Shown: in pieces, positions 772-19,700 of the stretch
Layout: every line of letters begins with the position of its first letter
Position numbering within the stretch: the stretch's first letter is position 1
DNA from: a virus
Length of the DNA stretch: 20,856 bases
Reading direction: 5' to 3' (one strand)
Virus record (IMG/VR): IMGVR_UViG_3300042946_001433
Location: 1-20,856 of that record
Made by a program: the position numbers and the translations under genes
The notes under the pieces: generated by a model
Told to the model about the DNA's origin: nothing
Seen by the model: only the letters and a program-made list of their open reading frames with translations
Databases searched by the model: none

Positions 772-3700
772 ATGGCAACAGCACAAGCAAATCAAAAAGT
801 TTACGTTTCACCCGGTGTATATACATCCGAGACGGATTTATCATTCGTGGCACAGAGTGTGGGTGTAACTACTCTAGGTTTAGTTGGAGAAACCCTAAAA
901 GGTCCAGCTTTTGAACCTATTTTCATCACTAATTACGATGAGTTTCAGGCGTATTTTGGAGGTACTGAACCTACAAAGTTTGTTAACACTCAAATCCCTA
1001 AATATGAAGCTGCGTATATCGCAAAATCTTATTTACAACAATCCAATCAATTGTTTGTAACTAGAATTTTGGGATTATCGGGATATGATGCAGGTCCTTC
1101 TTGGAGTATCAAGGTTACATCTAATGTAGACCCACTTACAATTGGTTTAAATCCATCGGCAGGAGCTAGCTTTACTGCGGACTTCAGTGGTTCGTCTTCA
1201 GGTAATACAACTTCATTTATTGACCCGACAGATTTACCTTTACCTGTTCAATCAGCATTGAACACACAATATAGATTGTCCGACGGAAGTACATCAACAC
1301 TTCAATCACAGATTAATGCTTATATTCAAAGTGTATATGATACACCATCTTCTTCTGCAGTTACCGTTAATATTTTCGGTGCAATACCAAACGCAGACGC
1401 TTTAGCGGTAGAGTTAACTTACAGTGCGGTTACTAATCCATATAGTGTAGATAACACAAACTTGGCTTACAATGATTTATCAGCAGGAGACAACGATTCT
1501 TGGTATTACGCAAACTTCACAAATTATAATGATAACAGTTATTCAGGTTATTCATTTTTCTTTGTAGTATCAAACTTTTCAACAGGGGCCTCTGAATCCT
1601 TTTCAGGGACTATTTCAGGTGCTTCATATACTTTCTCAGGTACTGCTTACCCTGAGTTTAACAACATGGTTGTAGCAACTCTTCGTTCAAGAGGTATCTC
1701 TTTATTTACGAACAGTTCAACAAGTGTAAATCACGGACCAGTTTATGAAGTAAGTGCAACAACAGGGGTTACACTCGTTTGTACTGAACAATATTCTGGT
1801 GTTACAAATAACCCTTATGGTACTTTCTTACTTTCAGGTGTTACCAAAGATTCAGATACCTTCTCATTTGAAGTAAATCTTTTGGCATCCTCATCTAAAT
1901 TCATAACCAAAGTATTAGGTGTTGATAATTTTGGTAAATCAAGAAATGAAGTACCTTTGTTTGTTGAGGAAATCTACGCAACTTCACTGAATGAGGCATA
2001 TAATCAAGGTCTTATCCGTGGTGTTAGTTGTGAATTAATCGCTTTACCAGGAGCTCGTTCTCAAGATTCGAGTTCAATTGCATATAATGTACAAAGATAT
2101 CAAGCACCTGAAACACCGTTCTTAGTTTCTGAATTAAGAGGTAATAAGGTTTATAATCTTTTCAAATTTATTTCAATATCAGACGGAGATTCTGCAAACG
2201 TTGAAGTTAAAGTTTCAATTGCAAACTTGTCTTTCAATAATATGACATTTGATGTTTTAGTTAGAAATTTCTTTGATACAGATGCTAATCCTGTAGTAAT
2301 TGAAAAGTTCACTAACTGTAATATGGACCCGGCTTCTAACAATTTCGTTGCAAAGAAGATAGGTTCTTCAAACGGTGAATATGCATTAATTTCAAAATAT
2401 ATCATGGTTGAGATGGCGGACGGAGCACCGATAGATGCTCTTCCTTGTGGATTCTACGGATACACTCAAAGAGAGTATGCAAATGTTCTTAATCCTTCTC
2501 CGATGATAAAATATAAAACTAAGTATTATTATCCTGGTGAAACTATTGCAAACCCTCCTTTCGGTGCTGCCGCAGGCGGTTCGAATACGGTTGAATCAAG
2601 CGGAGATATAATTAGAAGAAGTTATTTAGGTTTTTCATCTCAATTTGGAATTGATGAATCTTTCTTAAGTTACAAAGGAAGACAAACCCCTTCAAGTTGG
2701 GTGTTAAGTGCAACAGAGGTTGAAGGACAAAAGTGGAATTACTTAAGTAAAGGATTCCATATGGACTCAGGTGCGACTGTTGTAACAATATCAAATTCAT
2801 CTTTAACTTCAGGTCAAACAGCTTTCGAATGTGGTTCTGCAGAATTCAGAGCAGACCCTGAAACTCAAGAAAATCCATATTATTTCATTTACTCAAGAAA
2901 ATATACAGTATGTTTTGCAGGTGGATTTGATGGTTGGGATATATATAGAGAGTTCAGAACTAACCAAGATAGATTCCAATTAGGTGCGTCTGGTTATTTA
3001 GCGGGTGCTTCACCTTCTTCAAGATATCCTACCGCAACAGGTGAGGGTCTATTCAAGAGAATTACAGTACAAAATAATACTACTGATTTTGCTAATACTG
3101 ACTATTATGCTTACTTACTTGGTATTTTGACTTATCAAAATCCTGAGGCAACAAACATAAATGTTTTTGCAACCGGTAGTATCGATTATGTAAACAATTC
3201 CAATCTTTGTGAAGAAGCTATCGATATGATTCAATATCAAAGAGCGGATTCGGTTTATATTGTTACAACTCCTGACTATCAGATGTACACTCCTGATTCA
3301 TCTAATCAATTCGATGTGATTTATTCTCAAGAAGCTGTAGATAATTTGGATAACACAGGAATTGATTCTAACTACACCGCAACTTACTATCCTTGGATTT
3401 TAACAAGAGATACTGTTAATAACACACAAATCTACTTACCACCAACAGGTGAGGTTTGTAGAAACTTGGCTTTGACAGATAACATTGCTTTCCCATGGTT
3501 CGCTTCGGCGGGTTACACAAGAGGTCTTGTTAATTCAATCAAAGCTAGGCAGAAACTAACTCAAGAAGATAGAGACACACTTTATCAAGGTAGAATCAAC
3601 CCAATCGCAACTTTCTCAGATGTTGGAACTGTAATTTGGGGTAACAAAACTCTTCAGATTGCTGACACAGCACTTAACAGATTGAATGTTAGAAGATTGT

Positions 3701-3987
3701 TGTTACAAGCTCGTAAGTTGATTTCTGCGGTTGCTGTTAGATTGTTGTTTGAACAGAACGACCAAATCGTAAGACAACAGTTCTTAGATTCTGTTAACCC
3801 AATTTTAGATGGTATCAGAAGAGACAGAGGTCTATACGATTTCAGAGTAACAGTTTCCTCTTCTCCTGAGGATTTAGATAGAAACACACTTACAGGTAAA
3901 ATTTACCTTAAACCAACGAAAGCACTTGAATTTATTGATATTGAATTCTTTATCACACCTACAGGTGCATCGTTCGAAAATATCTAA
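772..3987 (+). CDS. Contractile tail sheath protein (gp18-like), enlarged
   Basis: This 1071-residue protein is a gp18-type sheath subunit, which polymerises around the tail tube and contracts to drive it into the host. The N-terminus (VYVSPGVYTSETDLS, then a GLVGETLKGPAFEP segment and an ...AAYIAKSYL..NQLFVTRILG region) and the C-terminal third are typical of the family. The C-terminal third (about 764-1071) includes GRINPIATF, the helix-rich RRLLLQARKLISAVAVRLLF, and the ending KALEFIDIEFFITPTGASF. T4 gp18 is 659 aa, so about 400 residues are extra. Most of the excess seems to lie in a Ser/Thr/Gly/Asn-rich, beta-like stretch around residues 115-370, probably one or more surface-exposed domains. 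ATG at 772 precedes the conserved VYVSPGVY motif by nine residues, which fits the start; there is no Shine-Dalgarno sequence. A terminator follows directly. Confidence 0.95.
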   Translation: MATAQANQKVYVSPGVYTSETDLSFVAQSVGVTTLGLVGETLKGPAFEPIFITNYDEFQAYFGGTEPTKFVNTQIPKYEAAYIAKSYLQQSNQLFVTRILGLSGYDAGPSWSIKVTSNVDPLTIGLNPSAGASFTADFSGSSSGNTTSFIDPTDLPLPVQSALNTQYRLSDGSTSTLQSQINAYIQSVYDTPSSSAVTVNIFGAIPNADALAVELTYSAVTNPYSVDNTNLAYNDLSAGDNDSWYYANFTNYNDNSYSGYSFFFVVSNFSTGASESFSGTISGASYTFSGTAYPEFNNMVVATLRSRGISLFTNSSTSVNHGPVYEVSATTGVTLVCTEQYSGVTNNPYGTFLLSGVTKDSDTFSFEVNLLASSSKFITKVLGVDNFGKSRNEVPLFVEEIYATSLNEAYNQGLIRGVSCELIALPGARSQDSSSIAYNVQRYQAPETPFLVSELRGNKVYNLFKFISISDGDSANVEVKVSIANLSFNNMTFDVLVRNFFDTDANPVVIEKFTNCNMDPASNNFVAKKIGSSNGEYALISKYIMVEMADGAPIDALPCGFYGYTQREYANVLNPSPMIKYKTKYYYPGETIANPPFGAAAGGSNTVESSGDIIRRSYLGFSSQFGIDESFLSYKGRQTPSSWVLSATEVEGQKWNYLSKGFHMDSGATVVTISNSSLTSGQTAFECGSAEFRADPETQENPYYFIYSRKYTVCFAGGFDGWDIYREFRTNQDRFQLGASGYLAGASPSSRYPTATGEGLFKRITVQNNTTDFANTDYYAYLLGILTYQNPEATNINVFATGSIDYVNNSNLCEEAIDMIQYQRADSVYIVTTPDYQMYTPDSSNQFDVIYSQEAVDNLDNTGIDSNYTATYYPWILTRDTVNNTQIYLPPTGEVCRNLALTDNIAFPWFASAGYTRGLVNSIKARQKLTQEDRDTLYQGRINPIATFSDVGTVIWGNKTLQIADTALNRLNVRRLLLQARKLISAVAVRLLFEQNDQIVRQQFLDSVNPILDGIRRDRGLYDFRVTVSSSPEDLDRNTLTGKIYLKPTKALEFIDIEFFITPTGASFENI

Positions 3988-4031: not shown

Positions 4032-4859
4032 ATGAGAAATATAACTGAAGGTTTTGTCGATGAAAGTACTCCCGATATGAAGTATTATGCTTTTGATTGG
4101 GACGACAATATAGTTCATATGCCCACAAAGATTATGTTAAAAAACGATGAGGGAGAAGAAGTAGGTATGTCAACTGATGATTTTGCTCATTTCAGAGAGA
4201 AGGTAGGTAAAGAACCATTCGAATACAAAGGAGAAACTATTGTTAATTTTGCAAATGACCCATTCAGAAATTTCAGAGGACCTGGAGATACTCAATTCCT
4301 TAGAGATGCAATGAAAGCAAAACAAGGACCGGCTTTCCAAGATTTTAAAGAAGCGGTGGAAAACGGTTCCATTTTTTCCATAATCACCGCTAGAGGTCAC
4401 AATCCAAAGGTTCTGAGAGAAGCGGTTTACAATTATATTGTTGACGGTTTTGGGGGTATAGATAAAGAACAATTAATTAAGAATTTAAGAAAATATAGAA
4501 ATTTTACTGATGAAGAAATGATGTCTGATGAAGAACTTATTCAGTCATACTTAGATATGAACAGATATTATCCAGTATCCTTTGCAAGTGAATCAGGGGC
4601 ACAAAGTCCCGAGGAGTTAAAGGTTATGGCTATGGATGAATTTGTAACTTATGTAAAAGACCTATCGCACCAACTGAATAAGAAAGCCTTTTTAAAAAAT
4701 GACGTAAGAAATGCATTCATACCAAAAAAACCAACAATTGGTTTTTCAGATGATGACTTAAAGAATTTAGAAAAAATGTATAAACATTATAAAGATAAAC
4801 CAGATAATATAGTTAAATCTTATTTTACTGGTAAAGGCAAAAAGGAATTAAGAAAATAA
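4032..4859 (+). CDS. HAD-superfamily hydrolase/phosphatase-like protein
   Basis: This 275-residue protein shows the landmarks of a haloacid-dehalogenase fold. Motif I is YYAFDWDDNI, giving D22-x-D24 (nucleophile and acid/base in active members). Motif II is SIITARG with T119. A late acidic motif, IGFSDDDLKNL (D240-D242), fits the metal-binding motif IV. The motif III lysine cannot be assigned with certainty. In active HAD enzymes these residues hydrolyse phosphoester bonds; the substrate here is unknown, with nucleotides, nucleic-acid ends or phosphoproteins all possible. The C-terminal tail is lysine-rich. The gene lies between sheath and tube genes, downstream of a strong terminator, so low expression relative to the sheath is likely. 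The key acidic residues look intact, so catalytic activity is plausible. Confidence 0.82.
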   Translation: MRNITEGFVDESTPDMKYYAFDWDDNIVHMPTKIMLKNDEGEEVGMSTDDFAHFREKVGKEPFEYKGETIVNFANDPFRNFRGPGDTQFLRDAMKAKQGPAFQDFKEAVENGSIFSIITARGHNPKVLREAVYNYIVDGFGGIDKEQLIKNLRKYRNFTDEEMMSDEELIQSYLDMNRYYPVSFASESGAQSPEELKVMAMDEFVTYVKDLSHQLNKKAFLKNDVRNAFIPKKPTIGFSDDDLKNLEKMYKHYKDKPDNIVKSYFTGKGKKELRK

Positions 4860-4950: not shown

Positions 4951-5439
4951 ATGGCGGATTTACTAATGAAAATGCCGATACCGTACGAACCGAAGCGTCA
5001 GAATCGATTTATTTTGAGATTCCCTTCTAGTTTAGGTATCAATGAGTGGTTTGTTGAAACTGCAGCAAGACCATCAATCAAAATAGGTGCAACAGAAATA
5101 CAGTTCCTCAACACGTCAACATTCGTTGCTGGAAGATTTAACTGGGACCCAATCTCTGTTAAATTTAGAGACCCAATCGGACCATCTGCTGCTCAGGCAC
5201 TTATGGAGTGGGTTCGTCTTCACGCTGAATCCGTAACAGGTCGTATGGGATATGCTGCGGGTTATAAAAAAGACATCGACCTCGAGATGTTGGACCCAAC
5301 AGGTGTGGTTGTAGAAAAATGGATTCTCTACGGAACATTCTTAACAGACGTTAACTTTGGTTCTTTGAGTTATGCTGCAGACGCTTTAGCGGATATTACA
5401 GCTTCTCTTAGAATGGACCGTTGTGTATTAGTTTACTAA
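4951..5439 (+). CDS. Tail tube protein (gp19-like)
   Basis: This 162-residue protein matches the T4 gp19 tail-tube family in length and plan. It has a short N-terminal lead (PIPYEPKRQNRFILRFP), an aromatic/Gly segment (WFVETAARPSIKIG), a central FNWDPISVKFRDPIGPSA, and a C-terminal beta region (LYGTFLTDVNFGSLSY) ending with a basic/hydrophobic strand. Subunits form stacked hexameric rings making the inner tube through which DNA passes; polymerisation starts on the baseplate hub and is limited by the tape measure. ATG at 4951 is the only sensible start; the leader is A/T-rich with no Shine-Dalgarno sequence. A strong hairpin with a T-run follows, consistent with a highly expressed single-gene message. 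Confidence 0.93.
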   Translation: MADLLMKMPIPYEPKRQNRFILRFPSSLGINEWFVETAARPSIKIGATEIQFLNTSTFVAGRFNWDPISVKFRDPIGPSAAQALMEWVRLHAESVTGRMGYAAGYKKDIDLEMLDPTGVVVEKWILYGTFLTDVNFGSLSYAADALADITASLRMDRCVLVY

Positions 5440-5510: not shown

Positions 5511-6260
5511 ATGGAAAATCAAGCTAGAGAATACGGACAACAAAATTTAACAATTCCACATGATGTTGTACCTCTACCATCACAAGGTGTATTCTACAAA
5601 AACAAGAAAAAAACATTAAAAGTTGGATACCTAACTGCATCGGACGAAAATATTCTAATGGCAGGAGGAACTGATATTACAACAAATTTATTAAGAAACA
5701 AGATATTTGAACCGGACATTAGAATCGAGGACTTAATGGAAGGAGACGTTGAAGCCATTTTAGTGTTCTTAAGAAACACATCATTTGGCCCCGAAATTAA
5801 TGTTAATGCAATTGACCCAAAGACAGGGAAATCCTTTTCAACAACTGTTATGTTGGATGAATTGAACATACGAAAAGGGGATGAACCAAATGATGACGGA
5901 ACATTTACAACGACACTACCAAGAAGTGGAAAATTTGTAAAAGTTAAACCTCTAACATATGGGGATATTATTGATTTAAGAAAAATGGAAGAAACATATC
6001 CGAAGGGTAGAGTTGTTCCATCGGTTACTTGGAGATTACAAAAGGAGATAATTGAAGTAGACGGAGAGACAAACAAAGGAGAAATTGCGAAGTTTATTGA
6101 GGCCATGCCAATCTTGGACTCTAAACACATCAGAAGATTCTTAGATGAAAATGAACCTAGATTGGACATGAGAAGAGAAGTAACTACCCCATCAGGAGAA
6201 AAACTAACTGTCAACGTTGGTTTTGGGGGTGAGTTTTTTCGCCCTTTCTTCGGACTATAG
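5511..6260 (+). CDS. gp26-like baseplate hub assembly protein / tail assembly chaperone
   Basis: This 249-residue protein resembles the T4 gp26 (T4_baseplate) family. After a short polar N-terminus comes the hallmark VPLPSQGVFY, then LTASDENIL, a central domain (LMEGDVEAILVFLRNTSFG), PLTYGDIIDLRKMEE, a helix with DSKHIRRFLDENEPRLDM, and a beta C-terminus ending FGGEFFRPFFGL. In T4, gp26 acts in hub assembly. By position between tube and tape measure, it corresponds to the tail assembly chaperones that keep the tape measure soluble. The ATG at 5511 follows the hairpin directly. The last codons overlap a second ORF in the +1/-2 frame with a T6 slip site at 6234-6239, like the gpG/gpGT arrangement of other phages. 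Assignment by motif and synteny; the exact role is inferred. Confidence 0.85.
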   Translation: MENQAREYGQQNLTIPHDVVPLPSQGVFYKNKKKTLKVGYLTASDENILMAGGTDITTNLLRNKIFEPDIRIEDLMEGDVEAILVFLRNTSFGPEINVNAIDPKTGKSFSTTVMLDELNIRKGDEPNDDGTFTTTLPRSGKFVKVKPLTYGDIIDLRKMEETYPKGRVVPSVTWRLQKEIIEVDGETNKGEIAKFIEAMPILDSKHIRRFLDENEPRLDMRREVTTPSGEKLTVNVGFGGEFFRPFFGL

Positions 6261-6393
6261 AAAAGGACAACTTGATGAGTTTTTCTATTTGAATACACTA
6301 CTCAAGATAACATGGCAAGATTTTAACGAAATGCCCTTGTTTGTTAGAAAATATCTATTAGACAAGTGGTTAGAAACTAATAAGAAGGACTGA
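6229..6393 (+). CDS. Overlapping small ORF; candidate frameshift extension of the gp26-like protein
   Basis: In the frame one base ahead of the gp26-like gene, an ORF is open from 6208 to TGA at 6391-6393. Its sequence after the overlap reads ALSSDYRKGQLDEFFYLN, then TWQDFNEMPLFVRKYLLDKW and a lysine-rich end. The pattern of an aromatic helix, a W-x-D/E-x-x-x-MP step and a basic helix resembles the small second products found between gp26/gpG-type genes and tape measures in other phages. No ATG opens it near the overlap. It could be made by slippage on T6 (6234-6239), giving a fusion of about 300 aa, or from GTG at 6229 (about 54 aa). A one-base sequencing error in the T-run would instead mean a single gene. 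It ends inside the next hairpin. Confidence 0.62.
   Translation: MSFFALSSDYRKGQLDEFFYLNTLLKITWQDFNEMPLFVRKYLLDKWLETNKKD
6234..6239 (+). other. T6 run, candidate +1/-2 translational slip site
   Basis: The codons GAG TTT TTT CGC cross this run. A tRNA-Phe on TTT can re-pair perfectly on TTT either one base forward or two bases back; both moves enter the frame of the 6393-terminating ORF. A -1 shift would instead hit TGA at 6290-6292 after about 20 codons. GGGGGT precedes the run at 6225-6230. Confidence 0.45.
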
Positions 6394-6433: not shown

Positions 6434-8290
6434 ATGCAAGACGCAGGACAACAATCAAGTGAAGATTTTCTCAAGGAAACCCTCGGCAAGGCAAACCCTT
6501 TCAGTGGAACAGAGCTAAGGAATGCGATTGCCAACATGACTGAGTATGGTAGACAACTCAATAATGTTTTTGGGCAATCCAAACAGAGGATATCTGAGTT
6601 GATGCAAACTGTCGCAGATGCTGAACCAAGAATCATAAGATTGGGAGGTAATATCTCAGCAACCTTCGAAACAATGAGAGCGGTTGCGGAAACCCTTCAA
6701 AGAAATGTGACGGTTACAGAAGACGTACTTTCACAACTATATGCGACATCAAAAGTTTTAGGTGAAGATGCGAATACTCTAGTTAAAAGTTTTGCAGATG
6801 CAGGATATCAAGCGGCAAGAATAGGGCCGGAAGCCAGCGAAGCTGTGATTCAAGTACAAAACCTTGGTTTGAATACCAAACAAATTATGGGTACGGTTCT
6901 GAATAATATGTCAGAACTAAACAAGTTTAATTTCAGTAATGGTATTCAAGGACTAACTAAAATGGCGGCTCAGGCTGCGATGGTTAGGTTTAACATGGCG
7001 GACGCTCTTGAGTTTGCAAACAAAGTACAAGACCCTGAAGGTGCGATACAAATGGCTGCAGGTTTACAAAGATTGGGTGTGGCAGCAGGTGCTTTGGCGG
7101 ACCCATTTGCACTTATGAACGCATCAATTAACGACCCTGGAGCATTACAAGAATCCTTAATCAACATGACTAAACAATTTAGTTATTTTGATGAAAAAAC
7201 TAAGTCATTTAAAATAAGTCCACAAGGTATTCTTACAATGAAAGAATTGCATAAGGAAACTGGAATAAGTTACGATAATTTAGCCAAAACGTCTTTAGCT
7301 GCCGCAGAACTTGATAAAAGATTATCACAAATTTCACCACAAATAAAATTCGGTAGTGAAGAGGACAAACAATATTTGGCCAACTTGGGGGCAATGAATG
7401 AAAAGGGTGAGTATACGATTAAGTTAGATAGTGGTATTGAAAAGAAACTTACAGATTTAACACAAACAGAATTTGATGATTTAATTAAACAACAAAAAGA
7501 AGCACCAAAAACTGTTGAGGATATTGCAAGAGCACAACTCAAATCATCCGACGCTGCAAGGGCTTCCTTAGAATCAATATCTAAAGCATATTATAATGGA
7601 ATTGCTTCAGTTAGAATAGTAAGAGAAAATTTAGCTGAGTTAGGTAAAGCGGCGACAATCACTTCAGGGGCCGTTAGCGGTGGTTTGGCTAGAACCGATT
7701 TGTTTAGAACAGGACTTGAAGATATTACAACCAAACTTGGTACAACTGCAGATGCTATAATAAATAAAGGAGCTAACCCTGTTGAGGCAATCAAACAACT
7801 TGGGTTAGAATTGAAAGAATCTATGAAAGGTGCTGGAGGTACTTTATATGGGATTGCAGCAAGAGCTCTTGATAAAATAGCCAAAGACAAAGAACAATTA
7901 AAGGATGCTTCATTTGTTGGTAAGAACTTCGGTTCCCTTACAGAAAAATTACAGGAATTTGTTAGAGCAAACACACCTGTTACTGCAACAGCATCACGAA
8001 TTTCGGCAACACAACCACAGACACCTACAACATATCAAGTTTCTCCACAATCAATTTTATTTAGTGAACAACAAAGACAACTTCAATCAGTGACAATTCC
8101 TCAGAACAGTGTAAATATAACAGAGGAAAAGAAGACGATTGATTATACCGGTACAGTAAGATTTGTCGTAGACGCACCTCCAGGTGTATCAAAACAACAA
8201 CTCGAAACTTATTTGAATACCGAAGAATTCAAAGAAACGATATATAAGTATGTTCAACAAAAGGACCTTGAGTTGGGAAAAAAACGATGA
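6434..8290 (+). CDS. Tail tape measure protein
   Basis: This 618-residue protein is predominantly helical and Ala/Gln/Lys/Leu-rich. It has Ala/Gly segments of mild hydrophobicity (for example AAQAAMVRFNMADALEFANK, and the later AATITSGAVSGGLA). A Thr/Gln/Pro-rich linker lies near residues 515-545 and a small charged C-terminal domain ends in KKR. Composition, position after the tube and gp26-like chaperone genes, and similarity in length to T4 gp29 (590 aa) support the tape-measure role: it spans the tube lumen, sets tail length, and is released on DNA ejection. At roughly 0.15 nm per helical residue, the upper estimate is a tail of about 90 nm. No Zn-peptidase or lysozyme motif is visible in it. 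ATG at 6434; no Shine-Dalgarno sequence. Confidence 0.85.
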   Translation: MQDAGQQSSEDFLKETLGKANPFSGTELRNAIANMTEYGRQLNNVFGQSKQRISELMQTVADAEPRIIRLGGNISATFETMRAVAETLQRNVTVTEDVLSQLYATSKVLGEDANTLVKSFADAGYQAARIGPEASEAVIQVQNLGLNTKQIMGTVLNNMSELNKFNFSNGIQGLTKMAAQAAMVRFNMADALEFANKVQDPEGAIQMAAGLQRLGVAAGALADPFALMNASINDPGALQESLINMTKQFSYFDEKTKSFKISPQGILTMKELHKETGISYDNLAKTSLAAAELDKRLSQISPQIKFGSEEDKQYLANLGAMNEKGEYTIKLDSGIEKKLTDLTQTEFDDLIKQQKEAPKTVEDIARAQLKSSDAARASLESISKAYYNGIASVRIVRENLAELGKAATITSGAVSGGLARTDLFRTGLEDITTKLGTTADAIINKGANPVEAIKQLGLELKESMKGAGGTLYGIAARALDKIAKDKEQLKDASFVGKNFGSLTEKLQEFVRANTPVTATASRISATQPQTPTTYQVSPQSILFSEQQRQLQSVTIPQNSVNITEEKKTIDYTGTVRFVVDAPPGVSKQQLETYLNTEEFKETIYKYVQQKDLELGKKR

Positions 8291-8343: not shown

Positions 8344-11300
8344 ATGAGTACAACCCTCGATTTTGCGAGTTCAGAAGCGTTTAGAAAAAAAATCATAACT
8401 AGAAATTTAGCACCTTATCCTAAATCTCCGAGAAGAACTACGCCTCCAATCAATTTCGAGTATATTCAGTCAGATTTAGCAGTAACAGATTCGCCCGATG
8501 GTTTAATAGATGACCCATCTTTAGCTAACAAACTTTATCCATTAAATCAGTATGGTGCCGATGGTGGATATAAACAAGTTCCTGACCCATCTGCTTTACT
8601 AAACTCAAAGTCCAACGAAGGGGAGTATGGGTATCAAGATGCTAATTTAGTTGACGAAAGTTTAATTGCAGCACAAAAAGGATTTCCTGGAATCGCACCC
8701 GCGTGGCAACCACTCAATGCATATGCCGGTCAGAATTTTTTAGATAGTAGTGAGGTAATAAGTACATTAGAAACAGTTCGAGTTGACCAAGACAGATTAC
8801 CAAATGGAAACCCATACCAACCACTTCAGTTCGTACCTTCATCATACGGACCCGTTTCAATTTTATTGAATCCAGACCCACAAGGAAGTAACGGACTACT
8901 AAGTTCCGACTCTTTCATACAAAGATTTGGTGCTTCGAACCTTAAAAAGTTGTTTTTAGATAGAATAGCAACTCAAATTAGAAGGGAAACTGTAGGAAGG
9001 GCTAACGTATTCAATGTAAGAAGTGGTACTGATATATTAAATTTAGTTACTGGTAGAGTTCCATTAATTGAACCTAATTATCAAATTACAATACCCGCAA
9101 ATCCAATTGTAGCCGCAACTGATTTTGCCTTAAGATTAGCCGGAAGTTATATACCTGTTTCCCCAATACCTGGTTCATATTGGGATACATCTGTAAATCA
9201 GGGACAACCAACAACCATACAACAACTTCAGAACGCATTTAAAAGAAGTGACACTGGTAAGTTTTTCACAAGATTATTAGGTGCAAACAAAACGGGTTCT
9301 CAAATCATGTATAACAACATGGGAGGGGGACAAAAGTCGAGATTGTTTGGTAACATTGATTACAACAAATATAAGCCGAGTTTCGATAGAACCTTGTTTG
9401 ATAGAGTAGGTGGGGTTATTGCTGGTTCAACAACAAACAACAGTAATTTTTACGTTGGTTCTAACACATCAGACCCATCGAAAGTATTCTCACCTGAAGG
9501 ACAAATCCCTGTCAACGAGTTTGGTGTAGAACAACAATCACCTGTATATGGACCTTCCGAACTTGCTCAATTATACGAAGGGCCAAGTCAAGAGGTTAGA
9601 TTAGGTGCAAACGGTCCAACTTACAGTAATGGTGGAGGCATTGAAGGAGGTTTCACATGGGTATCACCAAAGTATAGAGGTAACGCGGGAAAGAAAGTAG
9701 GAATTGGAGGGGATGTTACTAACATTGACGAGGATTTTAAACCATCTTCATACAACTCAACAGAATCTACAAATAGAGAGTTTAGAGAGGGTTCTATTTT
9801 AGATGACACACAAAGAATAATTGAAAGCCAACCACAAGGAGGTAAGAGATTACAACATGTCGGAAATGCTATTGACCAAGTCAGTAAAGTTTTCCATGAT
9901 GGATATAAAGAAATGACCAAGGGTTCGAGAGTTTTATCTTATGTAGGAAGTTTTGGTAACGAAGTTGGAACTGAGTATTGTAGGGTATTTGCTAAAGACG
10001 TACCATATCTACAATATAATGATTTACAGAAAACAGATGGAATGACAACAGAAGGAAGAAAGTTTTCTTATTCTGTATTGGATAAAACATATAATCTTAA
10101 TATTGCTCCAAACAAAAGAGAAGGTGGCCAAGATTCTTCAAATTTAATAGGAACTGGAAATGCAGGGTACGCTAAAAAGTATATGTTCTCATTAGAAAAT
10201 TTAGCATGGAGAACATCAAGTACTCCAGGATATACTGTGAACGATTTGCCAATGTGTGAGAGAGGACCGAATGGAGGAAGAGTAATGTGGTTCCCACCAT
10301 ATGGATTAACTTTCAATGAAAATATATCCGCAAACTGGAAAGGTAATGATTTCATTGGAAGACCAGAGCCAATTTATACTTACAGTAACACCAACAGAAC
10401 CGGAAGTATTTCTTGGAAAATTGTTGTGGACCACCCTTCAGTTTTGAATATGATTGTAAACAAAGTACTATCAAAGGAATCTAACGCGGTAAAAGTTAAT
10501 AGTATTTTGGATTCATTTTTTGCAGGATGTAGAAAGTATGATTTATATGAGCTGGCTAAAAGATATTATACTATCAACCCCCAAGATTTATACCAACTTC
10601 AACAAATCATCACTTCGAAAGAGATGTCAAAAGAACAGTTGGGTGCTGCTGTAAAATCACAACAAAGTGGTGTAGAAGGAACAAGAGAGGAAACTAAACA
10701 ATCAACACCTCAGGCAAACACAACAATCGATTGGACAAAAGTTCAAAACATGAACTTGTTCTTTGATAATGATTTTCCTCAAGCGTCAGGAACTTTAGAT
10801 TATACAACTTTGTTTGGAAACTACTATGGACAAAAATCCGTTTATGCACAAAAAGATACATCTACAAGTCCATTCTTTGATAAAGCGGTAAATGCAAGTT
10901 ACCAAGCGTTAAATCAATTCAAAATAGAATTAGCCCAAACACTGGAACAAAATCCAAATGGTACAGTTTCACTGATAATTGACTCTAGTTGCTCGGCACC
11001 TCAAACAGAGGAATATAACAAAAAATTGTCTGAGAGAAGAATTACATCAATGATTGAATACTTTACAAAAGATTCTGCTCTTACAAAATACGTTACAAGT
11101 TCTCCTCAGAGATTAGTTGTGAAAGCGGGAACACCATTTGGGGAAGTAACAAGTTCAACTCCGCAAGCGGCGGCGAAGGAAAGCGGACCTTTTACACTTA
11201 ACGATTTTAGTCCTTGGGGACAAAGTTTTAATTGTAGTGATAAGAACTTGACTGGTGCTTTACAAGTTAAGGGTGGTGATGTGATGGGCCCTAAAGAAGT

Positions 11301-13434
11301 TTTCACAATAGGTGCTATGGCTTGTAGAAGAGCTTTCATATCTAAGGTTGAACAAACTCTCACTCAGGCTCCTCCTGTACCTAAAGGAGATGTTGCTCAA
11401 GAACAACCTAAGGGTGTATTAACAGGAACAGTTTCACCAAAACCTCTTGGTCAAACACAATTGGAAACAACGTGGGTTGAAAAAGATAATATAACCAAGA
11501 GAGTTCTTAGGGGACTTCTTTCCGAGTGTGATTACTTTGAGACAATCAAAGAAAATACTCCCATGGTTTATGATAATCTTAAAGATAAACTTAAATTCTT
11601 CCAACCGGCATTCCACTCAATGACACCTGAAGGATTGAACTCTAGGTTGACGTTCTTACAACAATGTATGAGACCTGGAGATACAATACCAACGGTAAAA
11701 CAATCAACACCACAATCTAAACCTGAATTGGAATACAACAACGCGATTAATACCGCTTTTGGTTCACCACCGGTTTTAGTTTTGAGAGTTGGAGATTTCT
11801 ATCATACCAAGATTATACCAACAAGTTTATCATTTACTTATGAAGATTTGGATATTAATCCTGAAGGAATCGGAGTACAACCAATGATTGCAAATGTTAC
11901 CCTATCGTTCAATTTTGTTGGTGGTAGTGGTCTTAAACAAGCGGTTGATAAGTTACAAAACGCCTTGACATTCAACTACTATGCCAATACTGAAGTATAT
12001 GATGACAGAGCAGATGCAACAGATGAAAGTTTCAAAGTACTTGACAAGAACTTCTTAAATTCAATCGGAGCACAGCCACCGAGGCCAACAGTTAACCAAG
12101 CAGGAGCGACTAATGGTTTGAGTAATAATAACACTATTGGAAACATCCTTACAAATATAAAAACAGAAACAACTGAAACAGGTACAATTTCATACAAGGA
12201 GTTCATGGATAAAGTTGTTGAACAATCACAAACATATTTCCAAAATATTGTTAACAAAAGTACACAAATTGTTGACCTGTATAACAATGGAATTCTACAA
12301 CTTTGGACCACGGACAGAAATTATATTGACGGAACAATGTTAGCAACACAATCAACAAATCAAAATACACAGTTGGTTGGAAAGCCAGAAAAGTTGGAAA
12401 CAAAAATCAACAAAATATTCAATGATTATATTTCCGATATCAAAAGTAATAATGATGGGGAAATGGACAGATTCATTAAATTCATGAAATCTCCTAACAA
12501 AAACTTTAATCCAAAAGTTATTAGAGAGTTAAAAAACAACATGGAAACCTTTGTTAAAGGAAGAAAGAATACTTTCCAAAATAGTTTGACACAAGTGATA
12601 CAAGAGATAACAAATCAACAACAGACATTCATTCAGTACTTAAGTAGAACAAACGTTATATTATACCAAGAAACAACCACCACCGGTTCCGACGGACTCC
12701 AACAAGCAAATGGGAATGTTAAAGCTTATGAGATTTCAGGAACAACAAACGTATACAAAGGAAGTGGATATTCTAATACATATGATGAATTATATGGTGA
12801 CTTAGAGATTATATCTAGTGGTCTAACCGAATTCTATTCTAAGGTGACTGAAGAATTTGATTTTCCTGTTGGAAGTAAAAATTATAGTGGGTATTTAGTT
12901 TGGGGTCAGAATGGTGTGACGGACTACAATGTAATTAAAGATAGAGTTTTTATACCTTTTAGTACAGATGATTACTTTACAATAGATTCTTTTAGGAGAC
13001 AGTATGTTATACTTTCAGAAATGATTTTGGATACCAACAAATATCAAACTTTTAAAAACGCAATAATTGCTAATATAAAATCCAACAAGAATATTTTGGA
13101 CTCAGGTAATACTGACTTGGACGGTGAGTTTGACAGTTATTGGTTAACTATTGCCAAACCAAAATTTGAAGAAGAAAATAGAATTGCAAAAGACATGATT
13201 AAAAAAATGTCAGATTCAACACTTAAGAATTTTATTAACTATACACCATTCCCATCAAAAGAAAGAGTTCTGAACTATGAGTTACTGTCAGACACTACAA
13301 CACAAAAATATAATGGAATTAAGAAAATGGTTCAGTCACTTGGAACAACAAACAACCCAAGCACGGAGAAAAAGAGTTGGAATATTGAATCCGACATAAA
13401 CGACGCTTATGTTTCAATGATAAAGCTTAACTAA
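8344..13434 (+). CDS. Large baseplate protein with embedded OmpA-like domain
   Basis: This protein has 1696 residues from ATG 8344; a TTG just before it is possible but unnecessary. The first 500 residues are Asn/Gly/Pro-rich with no recognised fold. Around 620-720 lies a beta segment (VMWFPPYGLTFNENIS, then IGRPEPIYTYSNTNRTGSIS) like domains of tail-tube-initiator/baseplate proteins. Around 805-1005 is an OmpA-like domain: FFDND (807-810), SLIIDSSCS, YNKKLSERR (891-899), LVVKAGTPFGE (924-934) and ACRRAFISKV (993-1002). The conserved Arg (R899) is present, but the peptidoglycan-binding Asp is replaced by Ser/Cys. Around 1140-1222 a second baseplate-like segment contains RVGDFYHTKIIPTSLSFTYE. 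The rest is mostly helical. It overlaps the next gene by one base (TAATG), suggesting translational coupling. Baseplate/tube-initiation role inferred from position and domains. Confidence 0.75.
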   Translation: MSTTLDFASSEAFRKKIITRNLAPYPKSPRRTTPPINFEYIQSDLAVTDSPDGLIDDPSLANKLYPLNQYGADGGYKQVPDPSALLNSKSNEGEYGYQDANLVDESLIAAQKGFPGIAPAWQPLNAYAGQNFLDSSEVISTLETVRVDQDRLPNGNPYQPLQFVPSSYGPVSILLNPDPQGSNGLLSSDSFIQRFGASNLKKLFLDRIATQIRRETVGRANVFNVRSGTDILNLVTGRVPLIEPNYQITIPANPIVAATDFALRLAGSYIPVSPIPGSYWDTSVNQGQPTTIQQLQNAFKRSDTGKFFTRLLGANKTGSQIMYNNMGGGQKSRLFGNIDYNKYKPSFDRTLFDRVGGVIAGSTTNNSNFYVGSNTSDPSKVFSPEGQIPVNEFGVEQQSPVYGPSELAQLYEGPSQEVRLGANGPTYSNGGGIEGGFTWVSPKYRGNAGKKVGIGGDVTNIDEDFKPSSYNSTESTNREFREGSILDDTQRIIESQPQGGKRLQHVGNAIDQVSKVFHDGYKEMTKGSRVLSYVGSFGNEVGTEYCRVFAKDVPYLQYNDLQKTDGMTTEGRKFSYSVLDKTYNLNIAPNKREGGQDSSNLIGTGNAGYAKKYMFSLENLAWRTSSTPGYTVNDLPMCERGPNGGRVMWFPPYGLTFNENISANWKGNDFIGRPEPIYTYSNTNRTGSISWKIVVDHPSVLNMIVNKVLSKESNAVKVNSILDSFFAGCRKYDLYELAKRYYTINPQDLYQLQQIITSKEMSKEQLGAAVKSQQSGVEGTREETKQSTPQANTTIDWTKVQNMNLFFDNDFPQASGTLDYTTLFGNYYGQKSVYAQKDTSTSPFFDKAVNASYQALNQFKIELAQTLEQNPNGTVSLIIDSSCSAPQTEEYNKKLSERRITSMIEYFTKDSALTKYVTSSPQRLVVKAGTPFGEVTSSTPQAAAKESGPFTLNDFSPWGQSFNCSDKNLTGALQVKGGDVMGPKEVFTIGAMACRRAFISKVEQTLTQAPPVPKGDVAQEQPKGVLTGTVSPKPLGQTQLETTWVEKDNITKRVLRGLLSECDYFETIKENTPMVYDNLKDKLKFFQPAFHSMTPEGLNSRLTFLQQCMRPGDTIPTVKQSTPQSKPELEYNNAINTAFGSPPVLVLRVGDFYHTKIIPTSLSFTYEDLDINPEGIGVQPMIANVTLSFNFVGGSGLKQAVDKLQNALTFNYYANTEVYDDRADATDESFKVLDKNFLNSIGAQPPRPTVNQAGATNGLSNNNTIGNILTNIKTETTETGTISYKEFMDKVVEQSQTYFQNIVNKSTQIVDLYNNGILQLWTTDRNYIDGTMLATQSTNQNTQLVGKPEKLETKINKIFNDYISDIKSNNDGEMDRFIKFMKSPNKNFNPKVIRELKNNMETFVKGRKNTFQNSLTQVIQEITNQQQTFIQYLSRTNVILYQETTTTGSDGLQQANGNVKAYEISGTTNVYKGSGYSNTYDELYGDLEIISSGLTEFYSKVTEEFDFPVGSKNYSGYLVWGQNGVTDYNVIKDRVFIPFSTDDYFTIDSFRRQYVILSEMILDTNKYQTFKNAIIANIKSNKNILDSGNTDLDGEFDSYWLTIAKPKFEEENRIAKDMIKKMSDSTLKNFINYTPFPSKERVLNYELLSDTTTQKYNGIKKMVQSLGTTNNPSTEKKSWNIESDINDAYVSMIKLN

Positions 13435-13757
13435 TGGGTTATCCTTATTATAACAGATATTCTGAGTTTCTTATTAATGGAGAACAAACTATTGTTCCTT
13501 ATGTTAGTTTACCTCAAAAGCCAAGTGACCAAACCTATATATATAAAGTTGGTAGGAGTAGGTTAGATAAGGTTTCACAAGAATTTTATGGTGCTCCATA
13601 TTTTAACTGGTTAATATTACAAGCTAATCCACAATTTGGTGGTTTGGAAAATACAATTTATGACGGTGCTGTCTTGATTATTCCATTTCCGCTTATACCA
13701 TCATTACAGGATTATAAAGCGGCATTAGAAAATCATTTTTATTATTATGGCAGGTAA
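13434..13757 (+). CDS. LysM-domain baseplate wedge protein (gp53-like)
   Basis: This 107-residue protein contains one LysM-like module: YIYKVGRSRLDKVSQEFYG, PYFNWLILQANP, then IYDGAVLIIPFP. It follows the usual plan of an opening strand, a helix ending in YG, a W-containing helix ending in N, and a closing D/G...L.IP strand. Small LysM proteins of this size are baseplate components in T4-like phages (gp53) and other contractile systems, where the fold serves assembly rather than cell-wall binding. It is wedged between two giant genes: its ATG overlaps the preceding stop by one base and its last 11 bases overlap the next gene, so all three are likely co-translated in fixed order. Confidence 0.8.
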   Translation: MGYPYYNRYSEFLINGEQTIVPYVSLPQKPSDQTYIYKVGRSRLDKVSQEFYGAPYFNWLILQANPQFGGLENTIYDGAVLIIPFPLIPSLQDYKAALENHFYYYGR

Positions 13758-16700
13758 CCTTACGGCAGACAACAGTGGAAACATATTAGTAGAATTCGAT
13801 TACAATAACATCATCGTTGTTGACCCAAACAAAACAGTTGATGATTTTGGTGTAATTGCTGAGAGATTAGTTGACCATGAGAATTTGGTTATGTATGTCA
13901 ACCTTGAGGCTGAGATGTTACCACGTACTAAATTAGCTGTTGGTGGTACTAGTGAAGACCGAATAAGAACTATTTCTGTTGGTAAAATTAATTTTCTAAA
14001 ACCCTCTGAAGGTAATTACTTGGGGACCGGATACTATGATGAACTGACAGGTAGAGATACTACTTCAGGTAAGGGTAAGAATCAAAAATTAGAAATTCCA
14101 CAAATTCCAAAAGACGGTTCAAAACCGTACATTCAAAATACCGTGGCTAATCCCGAAAATGTTGAAGATAACGGATTATTAGGAATAACAGCAATCAATA
14201 TTAGAACAGGAACATCATTTATTCCAAGTGTTACTATAAGTTTGGAAGATGTTCAAGGAAAGGCTCTTTTTGAGTTAGGACAAAATTCACCTTATGCCGC
14301 CTTTTTCAACCTACCCTATCCCGTGTTTTATTTAACACTAAAAGGGTATTATGGTCAGGCTATAAGGTACCAATTGAATTTATTGAAATTTAATGCGAGG
14401 TTTAACTCTTATAGTGGTAACTATTCAATTGAGTTAGAGTTTGTCGGATATAAGTTTAATATTCTCAATGAACTACCTATGGGACACCTTTTGGCTGCCC
14501 CACACATGTATGCAACAAGATTTAACGTAACAAAAAGCCCAACAGAAGGAGACAGTTCACAAGGAAGTAAACTAGCTTCAATTGACCCCAACACTGCAAG
14601 GGGGACTACAAGTACGATAAATGTTAATACACAACTTGTTACAGAAAAAGGGTATCAAAAAATTGTAGAGGTTTATAGTGAATATAAGGCCAAAGGATTA
14701 ATACCAAGAAACTTTCCAGAACTTACGATTTATCAATTAATGAATAAGTTGGAGAACTTCGAAAAACAAATCGCAGAATCTTACCCTAAAGCAAATATTA
14801 CACCTCTTACTAATATTAGAAATTATAAAAAAAGTTTAGAATCTTATTTGGAGGAGGTTAGGGGTGGTACAAATTCTTGGTTTGGTCAGTATTGTAATCC
14901 CAGACCAATCGTCTTAAAAGATGGTAGGTATGTTTATGCTTTTAAAAAAATAAATAATGATACACAAGTCACGGCTTTATCGAAACTAAAAGATATAATT
15001 TTATTAAGAAACGCAGAATTATCAGGTAACCCAACGTTAGGTTCTAAGGGAACATTCCCAATTACAAACCCAATTAACGAAAAAATGATTGTTGTTACTT
15101 TGGAGGATGAAAAAGTTGATTGGATTGAAACCGCACAACAACAATATGAAACCTTGGAACCAACAGTTGTAGATATTATTAAAGCCAAAGCGCAATTTCC
15201 ACTCTTCGAATATAAAGATGAAACCAATGAAGAAGGTGTGGTTATAAACAGAAAAGTTTATTATTTTCCTTTTTTCTTGTTTGAGGGTAAACCAAATTTG
15301 GCGTTCGAACCTACTATCTATGTGATGCAAGCTGAAGCAAGTAAAAAACTTCAAGAACTCGAAGCTATTATATCTGCTGAATTAGCAAGAAAGATTGAAG
15401 ATACTGCAACAGGACTTGGATTCACTCCGAATGTCAGAAGCATCATGGCGGTTATAATGGCATCCGCCGAAGGATTCATAAGGTTATTAGATGATTGTCA
15501 TACAAAGGCTTGGGATGTAAAATATGACCCAATTAGAAAAAATGCGATTCTAAATAACAATAGTTCTGTACCAAGTTCAGATAAGGTTGATGATGTAGAA
15601 ATTGCGGCAAATGCTCAGAACGACCCGAACAACGGGTTGGCGTTGGCTCAAATTCCCGTATACCCTTGGCCACAATTTTTTGTTGAAACTCCTGAAGATA
15701 AGAAAGGTAGATTTCAACTTAAGTATTTGGGTGACCCGAGCGTTGTTAATTTAACTAAAGCCTATCTATATGAAAAATGGCCCGAAGTTGAGTTTGTTGA
15801 GGAATACATGAAGGGATTGACCCAAAAATTCCAAGCACCTTTGGCACCACAACCTTTGGATAATTCTGCGGAAACAAACATTATAAATTATGTTCCTTTA
15901 GAATTTCCAAATACGGGTATTGCTTATTCAAATAAAGAAGAGATTAAATTTTTCTATGAGATTTGGGAAAGACAATTTGTTTCTGCATACTACAATAACT
16001 TTGGTAGAATAGTTACAACTCAAAACTTGTTTGATGAAATAAACAAATATAATTTGGAGGTTGAGGGTAGTAATTTGATTACAAGTTTGGGACTTAGTTC
16101 ACCGTATCTTGTAACTAAATTGAAAAATTATAACCTTAATTCAGCCAACTACCAATCTGTTTTATATAACATATCGAACTTAGGAACGGGTAAAGCATAT
16201 CAAGATTTCATCAAAGGATTTTACGTAACACCTTATTTGAAAGAAATGACGGAATTTTCAAATTCAATTTTGAATTTAAATGAAATAGGTAGAAGACCGT
16301 CTTTGTCTGTTGTCTCTTCAGGTTTAGAAACACTGGCAAAATCTGCAGTCAACACACCACAAATTATTGACACTTATCCTTTTGTTGATACAAGATGGTG
16401 TTCAGATAATTTAAGTTCATCAGATAAAAGCGTTGGTCAGGCAGTATACAATACAAATAAAGTCCTAAAGGTTTTTCCTAGTTCGACAGTCATATCAAAC
16501 TTTGAAGAACTTACAAATTATTCAATCAATAGACCTGTAACAAACTTTTTCTACCTTAGTGTAAACAACCCATCAATAGAACTTACAACCAACACATTAG
16601 TCGATTTCTATAAAACAAGAGAACCTAAAATCCCAACCGAAGGTTATTTACAGTCATATTCGCCAAATCCTAATTATACAGGACAAACAACAACGTCTAT

Positions 16701-19700
16701 ATTAAACACACCATACTTTGTAAATGCGATTCAATCGGGGGTACAGGAGGAAAAAAACAGAAACGAATATCCTTATATACAAGCGGCGTATCTGTTTTTA
16801 AATTCTTTACCTTTAGCATCACTCAGAGAAAGGTTTAAATCTGAGATTGCAGATACCACCAACGATTTGGATTATATTGCGGCATGTCTAAAAAAGTTTG
16901 CAGGTGTGCACAAACTACCATATCCTTGGATTTTGAAATTTGGTGCTATTTGGCACAGATATAAAAAGTTCAAACAAACGGGAGTCGATATTCTTGATTC
17001 AGTATGGAAAGATTTCAACTACAATAACAATTTTGACCCAATAGGTAATTCTGTTTCAAAAGAATATGTTTTTAATACCTTGGTACCTAACACTAATGGG
17101 GAGTTACAGCAAAATAAAGTTATACTTCAAACCGAAGATACCGCATCTATATCCATTCAACTTGGTTTCTATCCTAAGTTGATTAATGATTTCAACTATT
17201 TCTACAATGGTAACGATTTATATTCTTCGTATTCAAATACTGAAATCCAAACATCTATTGCCAATGGAATGAGAGTTTTCACACTCGACGAAGCTAATTT
17301 ATATGGTGTGACTCAAAATACTAAAAATTTAAATCTTCAAACATTTTCAGTAGTACTACCCGCACAAATCGAAACCAACGAAGTTGTTAATGAGTGTGTC
17401 AAAGATAAAATTACGGGAAAAAGGTTTTTTATTATACCTTCATTTGGTTCTCAAATCAATCAAATACAATCTGAAGTTGTTGACTCACAAAATCAAACTA
17501 GAGTTAATTTAACAGGAAATGAAGCCATGTATAATGGTTCGGTTAGATTATTATGGGCATCACCAAACTACGGTTATTTCGAAGGGTTTCAAATTAAGAA
17601 ACCTGGAGTTGAAAACTACATAAATGAAATATATTCAGGATATACAACACAAGCCCCATTTGCATTGTTATCGGGACAGACCTATAGTACTTTCGAAGAA
17701 ATGTTTTCAGTGTTCGATAAAGAAATTTTGGATGAGTTTGAAATACAATTCTTAGATTTTTCGAGGTCTTCCAAAAACATGAAGATACCAAGTTACTCAG
17801 TAACAATTGGGGAGAGTTTAACGGACCCGAATGCAATTTTTACAAACTTCCAAGCGTTTTTCAAAACAACAATGGTTGTTGAAGAACAACTACCTAACGA
17901 AACATATGAGGAATATTTCAACAGAACGGCGAGTTTCCAAATACAAAATTTCACCGGTAACATGAAAGCTTTCATGGAATACGATAAGTTATTAAGGTTT
18001 GGTAATCCAAGTTTTTTTGACAGAAGAGTTTGGCTTTCTTATCTAAGTGAAGTAGATGAACCAATTGATTTTGGTCCTTATGAAAAAAATTCATTACCGA
18101 CTGCGAAAGGAAACATTACTTTGGTTCAAAGTAAAAGTAGATATCCACAACAGTGGTTAGCGCTAGAGTTAGAAGTTGGTTTTTCAACTATTCCACAACT
18201 TAGGTATAAAAATACTGGCTCATATATTACTGACTTTTTTGTTGATAATAACATTGATTTTACCGTTGATAATATAACTTTATTGTCACCTCTTATAAAA
18301 ATGTATGCGACTTATAAGTTATTAAATCAAACAACATCTAACTCAACTACGTTTAAAAATGCACTTTCAACATACCTTTCGAACACACAAGCACTAAGTA
18401 ATCAATTTCTAAATGACGTAATGAGGAGGGTTCAAGCCGGACTTCCAGAACAACAAGAAATTCCTGAAAGAACAATTCAAACGGTTATTGATGGACAACA
18501 AAGTAAAGTTGAAAACTATGAAATGTTTAAAGCCTTGAATGATAAATGGATTGCAGGTTCTGACTATAAAACAAAAACTCTGTTTGAGGACATGTTGTTT
18601 ATGGATAGAGCTTCGAGAAATATTGGAGAAACAATATTCATTGATATTTTCGACTTAAGAAACTTCTTGAGTAAAAGTGCATTGAATATGGATATGAGTG
18701 TATACACGCTTATTAGTAGTATTTTAATGAAGAATAACTTCGTAGTTATGCCACTGCCGGCCTATGTAAATTTTTATAATGTTCAAGATGTTTCAGGGCT
18801 TTCCACAAACAGAGCTGAAGGAAGTTTAGAGTTTGCCAATAATTTATGGGGAACTTTCTTGAACGTAGATTATAGAAATTCGGGACCAAAGATGGTTGCG
18901 TTTTATACGGGTAAACCTTCAAACTATCTAAATCTACCGAAAGGTAATTTCAGATTTAGAGACGATGGATTTGAGATGAGGAGAAGTTCACAAAACCCTT
19001 TGTTGGAAAATCCGCAAGGTAAAAAAGATTTCGGTTTATCCAACAGATGTGTAGGTTTCAACGTGGATATCGGAACAAGAAATCAAAATATTTTCTATTC
19101 GTTTCAAGTTTCCCAAGAAAACGGAAAAGCAACGTCAGAGTCAATCAATACTCAATTGAATATGATTGACCAATCAGCTGGAAGAAATACGGCAACTCAA
19201 AACGTTTCATTATATAATTTGTACAAACAAAGGAGTTACGAATGCACCATCCAATCTCTTGGTAATGCAATGATTCAACCAACGATGTATTTTAACCTAA
19301 GACACGTTCCGATGTTTAACGGGCCTTATATGATTACAGAGGTTTCACATAGTATTCAACCGGGTAATTTTGAAACGACATTCAAAGGGATAAGACAAGG
19401 TATGTTTGATTTACCATCAATAGATTCATTTATACAAAGTGTAAACAAGAATCTATTAACAAAAGTAGAACAACTTGTTTTGAGTAGACCTGAAAACACA
19501 ACCGCAACGCCAACCACAAATAATAATAAGGCTGCTGATGTAGTTCAAACAGCTAAAAATACTTTGGCGGCTCAAAATACTTGTGAGAGCAAAGTGTTCG
19601 AGGACTATAAAACACTTGGATGGGCACCTAATGAAGGTACCAAAACTGAAATTAATCCACAACAACTCGCAGATATAATAAAAAATAGAGTACCTAATAA

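Follow-up and report, generated by a model that had tools for sequence, protein, structure and literature searches.

Comparative sequence evidence indicates that a gp26-like phage gene very probably yields a second, longer protein, made by ribosomes that skip one base near the end of the gene and read on in an overlapping frame. The DNA analysed is a single virus record of 20,856 bases, referred to here as the window, and all coordinates are window positions. A first-pass annotation had proposed a programmed frameshift joining the gp26-like gene to a hidden frame, and comparison with relatives strongly supports that proposal. We consider it highly probable that tail assembly chaperones of a T4-like phage with a contractile tail are encoded here, and that a programmed +1 shift yields the long form as a minority product. 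The features are as follows:

772..3987, + strand, tail sheath protein, context (PF17482, 4.7e-6; phrog_23, 4.7e-53)
4951..5439, + strand, tail tube protein, gp19-like, context (phrog_4542, 3e-24; phrog_45, 7.1e-10)
5511..6260, + strand, gp26-like putative tail assembly chaperone, short form (TAC-N, lambda gpG counterpart; PF12322, phrog_150)
6225..6227, + strand, invariant GGG glycine codon, candidate stimulator, ending 9 nt before the slip codon
6237..6242, + strand, predicted slip site TTT_CGC (TTT in 42/42 and CGY in 42/42 distinct genes)
6241..6393, + strand, +1-frame extension (TAC-C, putative lambda T counterpart), 50 codons plus stop (conservation, selection, profile match)
6434..8290, + strand, putative tape measure protein, 618 aa, context (by position)

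The gp26-like gene sits in a contractile-tail gene block in which the sheath, the gp19-like tube and the gp26-like gene are followed by the 618-aa ORF. In Flavobacterium phage immuto the annotated order is sheath, tube, gp26 and tape measure, and the counterpart of the 618-aa ORF is the protein annotated as tape measure, although BLASTP detected no similarity between the two. The placement may be that of G/GT-type genes, with the tube clearly upstream and a putative tape measure downstream, judged by position and by the immuto annotation. In most relatives, an ORF of ~600 aa begins 38-46 nt past the extension stop. T4 gene order was dropped as a template for the window, as T4 genes 26 and 51 are divergent. 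Elsewhere in the window, a 275-aa ORF between sheath and tube (4032-4859) carries an N-terminal FDWDDN motif and looks by eye like a HAD-type phosphatase, with no significant Pfam match. Positions 8344-13434 encode a 1,696-aa protein that gave no match in Pfam or PHROG searches; the part of it containing SERRITSMIEYF looks by eye like an OmpA-like peptidoglycan-binding domain. A very long ORF from 13747 to 20856 (at least 2,370 aa), which had no Pfam match, runs off the window end and has a GSSGSSGAAGSSGTS repeat near the ORF end.

The gp26-like frame (5511-6260) encodes 249 aa and closes, as the first-pass annotation had read it, with a TAG at 6258-6260. Its product matches PF12322 at 4.1e-9 (36.9 bits against a cut-off of 24.5, and 35.8 bits in the search of its own record) and phrog_150 at 1.8e-13. 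The AF2 model of the short form (pLDDT 84) retrieved gp26/gp51-like baseplate-hub proteins of other phages with Foldseek, which found no significant match and no solved structure alike in the PDB. PDB sequence searches with the family profiles also gave no hits, the short extension rows of one alignment being misaligned. Because the predicted fold has no matching solved structure, its likeness to lambda gpG is argued from gene order, from the two-form design and from the literature.

The +1 frame is open from 6208, after a TAA at 6205-6207, to a TGA at 6391-6393 and encodes a peptide with TWQDFNEMPLFVRKYLLDKW; rechecking returned the coordinates first noted. Such a 58-codon frame is unremarkable by itself, mechanical ORFs of 50-230 aa being common in the window. 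A scan of viral contigs returned ~500 relatives, of which 80 were kept; among these and the window together, 79 sequences carry the whole region. In all 79 (38 distinct nucleotide sequences) the extension lies in the +1 frame and runs exactly 50 codons from shift point to stop. Pairwise counts that ignore phylogeny gave a pS of 0.55 and a pN of 0.11 in this frame, a dN/dS of ~0.11, and the same kind of count over the other two frames of the extension DNA gave ratios of 0.73 and 1.98, with ~5 stops each. Codons 7-16 of the extension, which lie ahead of any recurrent start codon, show the same kind of constraint (pS 0.79, pN 0.05, again from pairwise counts). Purifying selection on protein sequence acts in the +1 frame only. 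Since frame relation and length are kept in 79/79 sequences with a low dN/dS, the extension is not a chance ORF. Folded separately from the short form, rather than within the fused 293-aa protein, it is predicted to form a three-helix domain (pLDDT 89) whose first helix begins at residue 4. Overall, the comparison argues strongly for translation of the extension as part of a fusion with the gp26-like protein.

The last codons of the gp26-like gene are GGT GAG TTT TTT CGC CCT TTC TTC GGA CTA TAG. The T6 run reported at 6234-6239 is present and corresponds to two in-frame TTT codons, and the junction TTT_CGY-CCT-TTC-TTC is fixed in the clade; at CCT TTC TTC, some of the nucleotide conservation is accounted for by dual coding alone. 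Arginine CGY is rare upstream in the gene, where it accounts for 5 of 382 Arg codons across the 42 distinct genes (<2%), and the 220 Arg codons of the other window genes include no CGC and nine CGT. A P-site UUU can move one base forward to UUC with perfect pairing. According to the PRFect paper, UUU and CCC come next to CUU in +1 slipperiness in prfB tests, and a +1 shift is usually triggered by a rare codon in the A site (PMC10885494). The canonical -1 slippery heptamer, X XXY YYZ, does not account for the window, where the extension sits in the +1 frame. The arrangement is otherwise that of G/GT-type genes: a 3'-end extension in another frame, no start of its own and a conserved slip site.

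Several observations bear on possible stimulators. GGG encodes the glycine upstream of the slip codon in 42/42 distinct genes, whereas the rest of the gene uses it for 46 of 570 glycines (8%), and this codon may stimulate the shift. A downstream structured RNA stimulator was not found in the window's clade (mean z -0.64). In the cyanophage-type relatives (L187-L266), a small hairpin with a 4-bp stem, about GGTCC-ATAT-GGACC, lies ~11 nt past the heptamer. Its stem changes on both sides in a compensatory manner, as counted by a simple script that ignores phylogeny, and its loop contains the ATG that annotations commonly take as the next gene's start.

How ribosomes reach the conserved frame was weighed against three other explanations, the first being a separate small gene, opened by a weak or overlapping start or by re-initiation after the gp26 stop. 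In the window no ATG opens the +1 frame upstream of its conserved part, as the first-pass annotation had observed, and the nearest candidates are the weak starts TTG 6217, TTG 6223 and GTG 6229. An ATG lies nine codons upstream in the +1 frame in 47 of the 79 sequences, where independent initiation is possible; this ATG, however, derives from the 0-frame codons AAT GTC. Likewise, an extension-like ORF in LR756511 has its own ATG through a TAATG overlap, and in most loci of the cyanophage clade an ATG occurs near the beginning of the extension. Against these stand the lack of a start codon common to the whole clade and the variability of the upstream +1-frame sequence, which has a stop within nine codons in 9 of 23 distinct stretches. 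In four relatives the +1 frame is closed three codons ahead of the shift and offers its first ATG, GTG or TTG at extension codon 16, 20 or 30, yet the extension codons preceding that point are conserved. The conserved first half is therefore unreachable by ATG, GTG or TTG initiation in these relatives, and with the first helix beginning at residue 4, initiation from codon 16 onward would leave little of it. The counter-case that the first-pass annotation itself had named, relatives with a separate ATG/GTG-started gene and no conserved slip site, was looked for and does not hold in the window's clade. We consider independent initiation quite unlikely as the source of the extension.

In the window and in most relatives, the T6 run also permits tRNA-Phe to re-pair two bases back, so that a -2 shift, as in phage Mu, would reach the same frame with one residue more (EFFFALSS at the predicted junction, versus EFFALSS for +1); the PRFect paper notes that -2 sites at GUU_UUU can look like +1 (PMC10885494). 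Re-pairing of this kind does not extend to all relatives. Four loci (L041, L055 and others) read TTC TTT CGY and would need to re-pair on UCU, and because they lack a T two bases back, +1 is favoured over -2. Clades with TTC TTT TGG, AAC TTT CTA or TTT CTT TGG similarly have no good -2 pairing and all permit +1, and +1 sites typically have a rare codon in the A site. Of the two shifts first offered for the T6 run, the forward one thus stands, as UUU to UUC before CGY, and we give the backward one a very slight chance. The homopolymer at the junction would also suit a gene broken by an indel, either a pseudogene or a sequencing error, with both frames truly one gene. The same layout nevertheless recurs across 79 sequences drawn from many metagenomes, and also in distant clades, both frames being under strong selection; a broken gene has a negligible probability. 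An error in T6 specifically is very unlikely, because contigs from many separate metagenomes show the same run.

The arrangement recurs in other clades, with +1 sites in some and -1 sites in others. A +1 site at TTT_TGG is found in nearly all relatives of Mel-JY01, a Microcystis phage, and of LR756508, a huge phage; LR756508 itself has TTT_CTA (AAC TTT CTA), and the huge-phage-like clade has TTC TTT TGG. Sites for +1 also occur in Flavobacterium phage immuto (TTT CTT_TGG), Rhodothermus RM378 (TTT_TGG), Bacillus SP-15 (TTT_CAC) and Streptococcus GXN1 (TTC TTT_CGT). Loci of the cyanophage clade instead have the extension in the -1 frame and, without exception (80/80), the heptamer T_TTT_TTC. Ahead of its TTT stands a codon for Ser (TCT or AGT), Gly, Asn or Asp that invariably ends in T, although T-ending codons make up only 61% of Ser codons in these genes. 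A -1 shift likewise suits Sinorhizobium phiM12 and Vibrio K575, giving T_TTT_TTY for the -1 sites overall.

Family and extension homology connect these clades to T4. PF12322 matches both T4 gp26 (8.8e-64) and gp51 (3.9e-52), and gp51 is a PF12322 protein with ~48 extra C-terminal residues. The cyanophage extension profile finds the gp51 C-terminus at 2.7e-5, against 0.12 for the best of 500 shuffles, and PHROG 634, the gp51 family, spans both the cyanophage extension ORF (1.7e-26) and gp51 (1.2e-23). Since gp51 carries PF12322 plus the extension, the short and long forms of T4 are two genes, with gp26 as TAC-N and gp51 as TAC-NC. Compared directly with gp51, the window extension gave no significant match. 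It matches the extension profile of the Mel-JY01 clade at 7.4e-6, and from there the profiles lead to the huge-phage-like clade (~1e-16), to the cyanophages (7.5e-4) and to gp51 (2.7e-5). Through this chain of intermediate-clade profiles, and only through it, the window extension can be assigned to the gp51 type. The window and T4 thus share the family (PF12322/phrog_150), a short/long pair and an extension related via intermediate clades; in T4, however, the pair is encoded by paralogous genes 26 and 51 on opposite strands, whereas the window has one gene and a predicted +1 shift.

Much of this logic has precedent. The first-pass annotation had linked gp26 to lambda G/GT, correctly, but not as a new connection: T4-like tail assembly chaperones were identified by Vladimirov, Gautam and Davidson (Virology 2022, 566:9-15), as cited in PMC12846349 and PMC10885494, and later papers credit that study with the two-gene solution and with the poly-T -1 signals of T4-like phages. 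A 2016 review had G/GT frameshifting conserved in long-tailed phages except T4 (PMC5009743). T4-like signals are described as poly-T -1 sites, a backward slip (PMC12846349), whereas the window would use a forward slip at a rare codon. We found no earlier report of +1 in gp26 genes in the open literature, a search in which Vladimirov et al. 2022 was not included. The family logic is already known, and the +1 rare-codon variant in a large uncultured clade seems to be new.

Among other recoded systems, P2 E/E+E' uses a -1 shift and, like lambda G/GT, produces a short protein and a frameshifted long form between tail tube and tape measure. The likeness to lambda is one of design and gene position, and lambda shifts by -1 (PMC5009743), unlike the predicted +1 of the window. 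Phage Mu also reaches the +1 frame at the end of its chaperone gene, by a -2 shift that the window's relatives argue against. The haloarchaeal myovirus HSTV-2 has a tail gene with a very likely +1 shift (PMC5009743), which would make it another tail chaperone locus that shifts forward and not by -1; HSTV-2 is an archaeal virus, likened here by locus and shift. Mechanistic parallels are offered by prfB and Ty1-type +1 sites, where a P-site CUU or UUU re-pairs one base forward beside a slow or empty A site. The A site of prfB holds a stop, in contrast to the sense codon CGY of the window, which also has no conserved Shine-Dalgarno at the prfB spacing, though it has the invariant GGG 9 nt upstream.

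By this combination of features, most ribosomes would terminate at the stop of the gp26-like frame (6260) and release the short form. Some would pause with 6240-6242 (CGC, or CGU in relatives) in the A site, because these codons are rare in the phage, and the P-site tRNA-Phe would then slip one base from UUU to UUC, where its pairing is at least as good. We infer that slippage occurs, at an efficiency that would leave the long form in the minority. By analogy with lambda G/GT, the tape measure protein would be coated by many short forms and a few long ones, the latter recruiting tail-tube subunits through their extension.

A search over GTDB genomes for the host found no relative; A/T-rich gene starts without Shine-Dalgarno motifs, together with the more distant immuto and RM378 relatives, lead us to guess at Bacteroidota. 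With moderate confidence, we propose a distinct +1 class of T4-like tail-chaperone frameshift, with UUU before an otherwise avoided CGY, perhaps helped by the upstream GGGG, in probable Bacteroidota hosts that initiate without Shine-Dalgarno. Lineages would have exchanged -1, +1, gene duplication (T4) and separate starts while keeping the two-form output. A single protein family would thus have at least three routes to its short/long output, by a +1 shift, by a -1 shift and, in T4, by gene duplication; this makes the evolution of recoding testable, and a +1 site on a phage-avoided codon would be a clean natural case of rare-codon +1 shifting.

The long form has been missed in the phage records listed, where the extension is unannotated or called a separate gene. 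A cyanophage-type extension occurs in 496 phage records, and among the matches listed it is unannotated, a hypothetical protein or a baseplate hub assembly catalyst. In records S-SM2, P-SSM4 and phiM12, it appears as a separate gene, unjoined to gp26.
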